Position numbers and translations under genes: made by a program
Shown: positions 39,095 to 40,594 of the stretch, piece by piece
Position numbering within the stretch: position 1 is the first letter of the stretch
How the letters are laid out: every line of letters begins with the position of its first letter
From: Capnocytophaga catalasegens
GTDB lineage: Bacteria; Bacteroidota; Bacteroidia; Flavobacteriales; Flavobacteriaceae
NCBI RefSeq assembly: GCF_026005215.1
Contig: NZ_BPMA01000017.1
Span: 1 to 49,029, forward strand
DNA length: 49,029 nucleotides
Direction: 5' to 3'
Notes under the pieces: generated by a model
What the model was told of the DNA's origin: nothing
Database searches by the model: none
What the model saw: the letters and a program-made list of their open reading frames with translations, nothing else

Positions 39095-39742
39095 TTATGC
39101 TGTTATTGGTTTATCAAATATTTCTTTTAAAATATGCGCTGGGTAGGTTTTTACCAACCCAAAACGAGGGTCAGGAATTTCTTCGGTTGGTATGCCTCGC
39201 TCTTTGCAAAGTTTTGATGCCTTACGACCGAGCGAACTGGCTAACTTAATACCGCAATCTATTCTCAAAAGTGATGCGTAACCTGCAACCGTAAAATATT
39301 CGGGTCGGGTGGTGAGCTTTGCTTCAATGAGATTGACCTGCTCTTGCACTTGATTGATACGGCGGTCTTGCTCTAATAGTATTTGTGCTGATTGCGCCAA
39401 TATTTCAAGTTGTGAGAGTGGTTTTATCTGCTTGGCGAGTTTTTCGCATTCAAGAAAATACTGCCTTGCTTGTTTGCCTTTCTCTGACCTTTGAAGCATT
39501 GATATTTCTTTGGCACAATCTAATGATAGAGCGTAGTCTTTTTTGTTTGTGCCACCTATGCCGTTTGATGCCTGAACAAAAATGTTTATCGCCTGATAAT
39601 CAATATTTTCAGTAAATCCATATTCAAACATTCTTTCAATCCAGCGATTAAAACCTTCTTTAATCTCTAAAAATTCGTACAATTCTCTTGCGGACACAGC
39701 TTGAATGCCGTTTTGCTCTGTTATTTTTATTAACTCTTTCAT
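39095..39742 (-). CDS. AntA/AntB-type phage antirepressor
   Basis: A 215-residue protein. The N-terminal AntA/AntB domain is clear (QAVSARELYEFLEIKEGFNR, WIERMFEYGF, NKKDYALSLDCAKEISMLQR, GKQARQYFLECE). The C-terminal part (EYFTVAGYASLLRIDCGIKL and after) looks like a small DNA-binding region. Such proteins counter the phage repressor on induction. It starts 2 bases after the stop of the upstream 103-residue gene. Confidence 0.85.
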   Translation of the reverse strand: MKELIKITEQNGIQAVSARELYEFLEIKEGFNRWIERMFEYGFTENIDYQAINIFVQASNGIGGTNKKDYALSLDCAKEISMLQRSEKGKQARQYFLECEKLAKQIKPLSQLEILAQSAQILLEQDRRINQVQEQVNLIEAKLTTRPEYFTVAGYASLLRIDCGIKLASSLGRKASKLCKERGIPTEEIPDPRFGLVKTYPAHILKEIFDKPITA

Positions 39743-39744
39743 AA

Positions 39745-40056
39745 TTAAGCGGTTTTTTGGGTTAATAAATTATTGCTCAATATTTGCACTTTCTCAAAGT
39801 AATCAGGACTTTTAGGTAACAAATCTACAAGCATTTCAAAGAGTGCTGTTACTTTATTGCTTCGTATCAGCAATATTTCACGTGGTTCATCTTCGTTGAT
39901 TTCGGTATGCAAATCTTCGATGTTATCACGCAAAACCTCTATCATATTGCGTAATTTGTAGTCTAACAGATAATCAACTGATGATAATTCTTTGACTAAT
40001 TCAAGGGTTCTTTTGGCTGTTGCAACTGCTTGGTTCCTTGTTTGGGTTTTTGACAT
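39745..40056 (-). CDS. Hypothetical phage protein preceded by a structured leader
   Basis: A 103-residue helical protein of unknown family (MSKTQTRNQAVATAKRTLEL...). It is the first gene after a consensus promoter at 40213-40243 and a ~150-nt leader. Its first codons (ATGTCAAAAACCC) are part of an element present three times in this region, so translation is a likely point of control. The antirepressor follows directly. Confidence 0.6.
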   Translation of the reverse strand: MSKTQTRNQAVATAKRTLELVKELSSVDYLLDYKLRNMIEVLRDNIEDLHTEINEDEPREILLIRSNKVTALFEMLVDLLPKSPDYFEKVQILSNNLLTQKTA

Positions 40057-40209
40057 AAATTAAAAAAAATTAAACGGCGTGAGTAGGTGTTGTCAAAAAC
40101 CCGTATTTACGAATTTGCATAACATTACTATTATGCGACACCCTCACGCCGTGAGTTATAAATATTTTACTTAATATACAGAAATAAAAATCTGTACGGG
40201 TTTTTGACA
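40044..40209 (-). promoter_or_regulatory. Candidate RNA switch in a prophage leader
   Basis: On the minus strand the leader holds TGTCAAAAACCCGTA (A, 40209-40195), its exact complement TACGGGTTTTTGACA (B, 40105-40091), and TGTCAAAAACCC again (C, 40055-40044), which overlaps the start codon. B can pair with A or C but not both. Also present are CGGCGTGAG/CTCACGCCG (40075-40083 with 40143-40151, extended by GGTGT/ACACC), GCATAA/TTATGC (40117-40122 with 40131-40136) and TACAGA/TCTGTA (40177-40182 with 40191-40196). A DNA operator array is the alternative. Confidence 0.6.
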
Positions 40210-40212
40210 CTG

Positions 40213-40243
40213 CAAATGTACGACAATTTTTTAAATGTGCAAA
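40213..40243 (-). promoter_or_regulatory. Consensus promoter of the structured leader
   Basis: On the minus strand TTTG (40240-40243) and TACATTTG (40213-40220) with 19-20 bases between: a perfect Bacteroidetes promoter. Transcription would start near 40208, at the first base of element A. Confidence 0.75.
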
Positions 40244-40290
40244 TTATTTTCATCAAAAAAAATCATTTTTTTTGCCTATCGGTACTACCG

Positions 40291-40320
40291 ACAAAAAAGC
40301 CCGTTGATTTTCAACGGGCT
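40291..40320 (-). terminator. Terminator of the 82-residue gene
   Basis: Perfect 10-bp stem AGCCCGTTGA/TCAACGGGCT (40298-40307 with 40311-40320) followed on the minus strand by T6. Confidence 0.85.
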
Positions 40321-40345: not shown

Positions 40346-40594
40346 TTATTGAAAATTATCAGCTGTTTTTCGTATGCGGGCGGCTAAGTCATACAAAGCA
40401 CCTTTAAATTGTTCTTTTTCGGTTTCGGTAAAGCCCCCAACACCTCCGTTTCCGTCAATTTCTGAAAGTTTATTGTATATCCACGAAGCAGATTTTCCGA
40501 AATAACGCTGTGAAATTTTAGCCCAAGATATTTCAAGAGCAATGTCTTCTATTTGTTTTTTTGTAGTTTCTCTTTTACTGATAATTATTTCCAT
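40346..40594 (-). CDS. Small phage protein (possibly DUF5053)
   Basis: An 82-residue protein. The middle segment EISWAKISQRYFGKSASWIY reads like a helix-turn-helix region, and GGVGGFTETEKEQFKGALYD is a Gly-rich link to a C-terminal helix. It resembles the DUF5053 phage proteins of Bacteroidetes as I remember them; not certain. It ends just before a strong terminator. Confidence 0.6.
   Translation of the reverse strand: MEIIISKRETTKKQIEDIALEISWAKISQRYFGKSASWIYNKLSEIDGNGGVGGFTETEKEQFKGALYDLAARIRKTADNFQ

Follow-up and report, generated by a model that had tools for sequence, protein, structure and literature searches.

A covarying C4-like antisense leader ahead of an antirepressor operon in a flavobacterial prophage

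The flavobacterial prophage leader that precedes an antirepressor operon in Capnocytophaga catalasegens is real: it covaries and is a C4-like antisense leader. It lies on the minus strand of the window, the whole stretch of 49,029 nucleotides (nts) analyzed here (contig NZ_BPMA01000017.1, assembly GCF_026005215.1), in the order A, closing stem P1 with the P2 and P3 hairpins and the antisense stretch B held inside it, C at the start codon, ORF1, and the antirepressor gene. By analogy with the C4 RNA of phage P1 and the CI RNA of phage P4, it probably gives rise to a processed, trans-acting antisense RNA that would block ORF1, and hence the antirepressor, and so confer immunity against phages. 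The element thus looks like a C4-like leader in bacteria unrelated to the hosts of phage P1, operating the same kind of immunity switch. If true, this is a Bacteroidota phage version lacking a detectable sequence relation to C4 and offering 22 readable specificities, such that immunity groups could be predicted from 12 letters. It would also suggest that antirepressor control of this type arose more than once, or is far older than can be traced in sequence.

Transcription of the leader would start from a promoter at 40213–40243 (minus strand, as for all parts of the element below) with the sequence TTTG-N19-TACATTTG. The promoter consensus of Bacteroidota is TTTG-N19-TAnnTTTG, which the window promoter fits. 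Similar promoters stand upstream of the homologues, and a looser form, TTG-N17–22-TAnnTTTG, is present in all of the distinct upstream stretches but L077 (32 of 33, a raw count over the 150 nts 5′ of the core). Directly upstream of the leader is a gene for a DUF5053 protein (40346–40594), which is followed by a terminator-like inverted repeat at 40298–40320.

Three repeats define the element, and all three are exact where the preliminary description had placed them. A (40195–40209), at the predicted 5′ end of the transcript, is complementary to the antisense stretch B (40091–40105, 12–15 nts) in an exact inverted repeat of 15 nts, and B is in turn complementary to C (40044–40055) in an exact inverted repeat of 12 nts spanning 40091–40102. 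C spans codons 2–4 and, just before them, the UG of the start codon. When 40040–40210 was dinucleotide-shuffled 2,000 times, an inverted repeat of at least 15 nts arose in none of the shuffles and one of at least 12 nts in six. The window has other exact 15-nt inverted repeats, whose arms start 19–34 nts apart. In 8 of the 25 different A/B combinations, position 1 of A (40209) is a C opposite an A, and therefore incompatible, so that this position is probably either untranscribed or unpaired, as expected for a transcript starting at position 2; the earlier prediction of a start at about 40208 fits this mismatch.

The region between A and C is highly structured. A small hairpin, P0 (40176–40197), overlaps the 3′ end of A in the minimum free energy fold, and the hairpins of homologues look alike by eye. 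The core is closed by stem P1, whose 5′ strand (40138–40152) and 3′ strand (40074–40090) share an exact stem of 10 nts (40074–40083 with 40143–40152), extended in the fold by 40086–40090 with 40138–40142 to 15 pairs; the proposal that a stem encloses B is thereby confirmed. Within it lie the P2 hairpin (40117–40136), capped by a GUAA loop, and the short P3 hairpin (40102–40111), which holds the 5′ end of B. Judging from the extent of stem P1 and from the 77 nts of phage P1 C4, a mature C4-like RNA core would measure 79 nts, with predicted ends at 40074 and 40152. For the leader of 180 nts, the predicted folding energy is −44.5 kcal/mol (z −3.97). In this simple fold, C and all but the last bases of A are mostly unpaired, and a hairpin enclosed by the long stem P1 takes up part of B, so that A:B and B:C would each form a pseudoknot with P1, as had been foreseen. 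Even in the predicted core B is only partly unpaired (mean 0.43–0.76). At gathering level, an Rfam search of the whole window returned two tRNAs and nothing else. The leader itself drew 14 permissive Rfam matches (E of at least 0.058, all under the gathering score), which resemble the inverted repeat itself or chance and were rejected.

Relatives of the element amount to 52 copies from 28 sources in Capnocytophaga, Riemerella, one more genus, and phages. A first DNA search matched 18 of 60 genomes; among the matches listed, most cover only the promoter and the start of the leader, and leader plus ORF1 are matched over their full length on another contig of the own genome and in two relatives, G019 and G011. 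Against phages, a blast search with leader and ORF1 returned 14 records, 13 of them named Riemerella phages; in these records the leader is matched and the coding sequence that follows is not. Two such searches produced 19 different records, 15 of which were scanned with a covariance model (NC_019490, a second RAP44 record, GDF21, of 6.3 kb, PJL1, and GRAP2 were left out); in this set, preselected by blast, two records carry one copy and 13 carry two. With covariance models of the core, R1 and then R2, six copies were located in the own genome, and 7 of 20 genomes of the genus, counting the own, had the element. Larger searches, of over 40 genomes, were run with stricter filters, which lose weak matches: at this setting the model found the own genome alone in the family sample (1 of 397) and in the phylum sample (1 of 395), the own genome together with G688 in the order sample (2 of 395), and 4 of 296 genomes in the family of G688, three in the genus of G688 and one in another. 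The two copies of G688 have coordinates identical to those in the R. columbina contig. A degenerate pattern search identified four Capnocytophaga contigs, one R. columbina contig, and three viral contigs, and the plasmid collection contained no match to the element. In a record named Shigella phage Henu10 (OQ791282, L111), both elements stand at coordinates equal to those of Riemerella phage PT15, which makes the Shigella label or the sample doubtful. A match to the DUF3800-VIII RNA (L033:3879–3944; 34.8 bits, under the gathering score of 40.2) lies near a DUF3800-annotated gene of phage PT03.

The three repeats of the element vary in concert. The 12-mer of B occurs in 22 forms among the 52 copies, and C, comprising the TG of the AUG plus ten further bases, matches B at 12 of 12 positions in 49 copies and 19 forms; C is lacking in G002, G013, and G000:C23. 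Pairs were counted in an alignment (A7) of 25 of the 28 distinct leaders, the three without C having been omitted beforehand. Across these 25 leaders, the 13 pairs of A:B are formed in 325 of 325 cells (100%) with two-sided change at 12, and the 12 pairs of B:C in 300 of 300 cells (100%) with two-sided change at 10, upholding the suggestion that B has two mutually exclusive partners. The covariation score is 0.850 for A:B, for which none of 500 shuffles reaches any of five measures, and 0.727 for B:C, for which none of 500 shuffles reaches three of the measures and 3 and 2 reach the two lesser ones. Sliding the partner by one to three columns reduces the score to at most 0.133 (A:B) and 0.135 (B:C). 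A single gap column in the A:B alignment takes up a 1-nt insertion in one copy of A.

Compensatory change in relatives was one of the tests named in the preliminary description, and repeats that diverge uncompensated, its refuting condition, are not seen: the number of differing positions in B equals that in C in 300 of 300 leader pairs, and that in A equals that in B in 292. Non-cognate 12-mers match at a mean of 7.4 of 12 positions and a maximum of 11. Taken over all leader pairs, divergence of the triple does not exceed that of the remaining leader (median 0.364 vs. 0.366; larger in 184 of 300). Of the 22 closest leader pairs listed, 15 have different 12-mers, and in 13 of these the triple diverges more. 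An example is provided by R. columbina copy 2 and G1166 copy 3, whose leaders are alike at all but 6 of 163 other positions and in which one change has been made in all three places. Codons 2–4 of ORF1 vary together with C, such that the proteins of Riemerella phages begin with MLNHQ, MLIQE, MFKTQ, or MFKQE ahead of a conserved TTAPTANNSS.

The scaffold around B covaries as well. Over 21 copies in a model-fitted alignment, P1, P2, and P3 together are paired in 91.6% of 559 cells, and 21 of their 27 pairs show two-sided change; a MAFFT alignment of the first eight copies gave 92.6% and 15 of 27. By helix, the 21 copies are paired at 91.4% in stem P1 (two-sided change at 11 of 15 pairs), 98.2% in P2 (6 of 8), and 77.6% in P3 (4 of 4), and the GTAA of the P2 loop is invariant in 25 leaders. 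These observations bear on the alternative already raised in the preliminary description, namely that the repeats are three DNA sites, two direct and one inverted, for one protein such as a repressor or recombinase. A change in the specificity of that protein would also shift three fixed copies of a 12-mer together. However, the scaffold around B covaries as RNA, 49 of 52 copies have C at the AUG, and the substitutions between A and B at positions 2–15 are G–U compatible in five of five cases, with one 1-nt insertion besides (25 combinations). The covarying scaffold and the G–U compatible substitutions together disfavor three protein-binding sites, which we regard as highly improbable. Inversion of DNA by the 15-nt repeats was also considered and is weakly excluded: the promoter lies outside the repeats, and all 52 copies have one orientation, although the search models disfavor inverted forms.

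The preliminary description knew of no described element of this form. That view is not supported, as phage P1 C4 displays the same layout and, compared by eye, the same topology, and the CI RNA of phage P4 with seqA and seqC, as described in the available part of PMC4825925, is a second case. The phage P1 record annotates, in order, a1, b1, c4 (77 nts), a2, b2, icd, and ant1. As in the immI region (c4-icd-ant) of phages P1 and P7 (RF01695), the present element has an upstream target, a downstream target by the first ORF, a short ORF, and an antirepressor, and as in C4 a closing stem surrounds two hairpins, the single-stranded antisense coming immediately before the closing strand. There are differences as well. 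Here a single contiguous antisense of 12–15 nts replaces the two blocks of phage P1, which have a1 b1 and a2 b2 as targets; C covers the AUG, whereas a2 and b2 are upstream of icd; and, unlike in P1 and P7, promoter and hosts are those of Bacteroidota. The Rfam C4 model, which scores phage P1 C4 at 68.8 bits as a positive control (gathering cut-off 45 bits), has no match at E up to 10 in 39950–40300 or at E up to 5 in 10 homologous loci, and none in the own genome, the control genomes giving none either; conversely, model R2 does not find phage P1 C4. Given the missing RF01695 match and the one antisense block instead of two, the element is not a member of Rfam C4. The precursor of C4 is reportedly processed by RNase P.

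As far as the available portions of the respective papers go, synthesis of the phage P1 Ant proteins is repressed by trans-acting c4 RNA (PMC8546580), full repression of ant requires the C4 antisense RNA (PMC8198154), and Ant is regulated by C4 and Icd (PMC8201110). The P4 CI RNA likewise consists of one antisense with complementary copies, seqA and seqC, upstream and downstream in its leader; it differs in controlling replication genes, by premature termination, and is likened here by the description in the accessible text (PMC4825925). The same portion of that source describes isrK in the leader of Gifsy-1 anrP (RF01394), also a prophage leader RNA that controls an antirepressor via an upstream ORF; with E allowed up to 10, the isrK model still finds nothing in the leader of the window. 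In the available part of an RNA survey (PMC2864571), c4 antisense RNA is entered for Proteobacteria and for phages. Among the open-literature papers listed on C4, P4, antisense immunity, and Riemerella and Capnocytophaga phages (subscription papers falling mostly outside this set), none reports such an element for Bacteroidota in its title or abstract opening. A parallel can also be drawn on the side of mRNA folding. In metastable mRNAs of the hok/Sok type, a 5′ element swaps partners and thereby exposes or hides the start codon. The present leader resembles these in having a 5′ element with alternative partners at a start codon, but neither a toxin gene nor a separate promoter for an antisense RNA was noticed here.

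How such a leader might confer immunity can be outlined on the model of C4. The leader transcript of a resident prophage would be cut at or near stem P1, yielding a stable RNA of about 80 nts in which B is partly single stranded. Once released, this RNA could pair in trans with newly made transcripts at their A and C, and the transcripts of an infecting phage that shares the 12-mer would be targets as well. Pairing at C would block initiation at ORF1, and the antirepressor behind it, separated by a gap of 2 nts, would then not be made, through either lost translational coupling or premature termination; without antirepressor, the repressor of lytic growth would remain active. In an uncut transcript, A may instead hold B as a cis pseudoknot, which would allow an infecting genome lacking the pre-made RNA to express the operon. 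A phage would escape by altering A, B, and C together, and many specificities would result.

The preliminary description had likened the leader to an attenuator or riboregulator. As a switch working only in cis, A:B would form first and leave C open, until some signal moved B to C, with no RNA acting in trans. The alternative pairings at the start codon are borne out, and several features are congruent with this arrangement. A is transcribed ahead of B and C, both pairings are conserved, and A:B is predicted to be the stronger duplex (−22.1 vs. −16.9 kcal/mol for B:C in the window, and in 23 of 23 combinations with both values). Yet diversification is needless for pairing in cis, and there are 22 different 12-mers; no conserved sensor is seen apart from the scaffold; and A and B are kept in units whose target ORF is missing or cut short. 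In G000:C23, A and B are present without any C in the 114 nts to the contig end, the stem being followed by a T run and then another promoter-like sequence. R. columbina copy 1 is followed by an ORF of 36 codons whose end overlaps a terminator-like hairpin, and the upstream copy of G1145 by one of 31 codons, its 12-mer being that of phages PT03, PT15, PT33, and Henu10. The diversity of the 12-mers and these units argue for action of the leader RNA in trans, which is likely, over action in cis only, which we hold to be unlikely. One further prediction of immunity, that the copies within one source should carry different 12-mers, is no evidence either way: the 12-mers are all different in 18 of 18 sources with at least two copies, but shuffling gives that outcome at P 0.70 in Capnocytophaga and 0.15 in Riemerella and the others.

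Transcription attenuation is another candidate, if stem P1 and the U run after it terminate transcription and pairing of B with A or C alters the yield. Premature termination is the mode of action reported for P4 CI RNA in the available part of PMC4825925, and all 26 distinct cores have a T run of at least four near the end of stem P1 (25 of them one of at least five), although these counts are raw and come from AT-rich DNA. In the window itself, moreover, the T run is interrupted by AA soon after the stem. We consider attenuation as the main explanation very improbable, and it may coexist with the C4-like antisense mechanism, which remains the preferred reading. A bolder extension of the latter, which we put forward tentatively and with more doubt than belief, is that flavobacterial phages possess an interchangeable antisense immunity, in which a fixed scaffold displays 12 nts of specificity, altered at three sites at once, and that prophages such as that of G1145 stack immunity-only units, with cut-short or missing target ORFs, against other phages. 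Tandem leader units are seen before one antirepressor operon in G1145 (L137:3836–4220) and in R. columbina (L081:4916–5348), the upstream unit in each having a different 12-mer and the cut-short ORF1 of 31 or 36 codons.

ORF1 (39745–40056, 103 aa) occupies the position of icd and has no convincing match in domain and family searches; against viral contigs it yields two weak partial matches, at 31% over residues 8–55. In Riemerella phages, an N-terminal stretch, TTAPTANNSSEVQ, is attached to several different bodies, which marks ORF1 as a mosaic. The antirepressor gene (39095–39742) starts 2 nts past the ORF1 stop and encodes an AntA domain (E 6.3e-24), supporting the earlier view that C covers the AUG and next codons just ahead of an antirepressor gene. 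The window antirepressor has no Pfam match to KilAC, a domain carried by phage P1 Ant1 and found with AntA, pRha, or KilA-N in 10 of 10 other antirepressors scanned. The full set of leader, short ORF, and KilAC antirepressor is complete in nine homologous operons as well as in phage P1, and in the viral contig G439 the KilAC antirepressor is itself ORF1.

Among 26 units that were read, 11 (the window included) have an antirepressor, 11 have none that is recognized, three end too soon, and one, R. columbina copy 1, precedes copy 2 of the same operon. Pfam found no antirepressor in the first one or two ORFs of C16, C1, C29a, and C29b of G000, C. gingivalis, G019, G438, G1144, GRNRAP2, G002, and G013. 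With 11 of 26 operons lacking a recognized antirepressor, control of an antirepressor is not universal, and the element can be said to control an antirepressor operon often, though not always. In Capnocytophaga, several copies (G000:C16, C1, and C29, that is L067–L069; L073; L076; L082) precede short ORFs without a recognized antirepressor. In phages GRNRAP2 (L121) and PJA1 (L104), the start of ORF1 is seemingly fused to the gene that follows the antirepressor in other phages, which bears a WYL_2 domain, as if the antirepressor had been deleted and the RNA kept.
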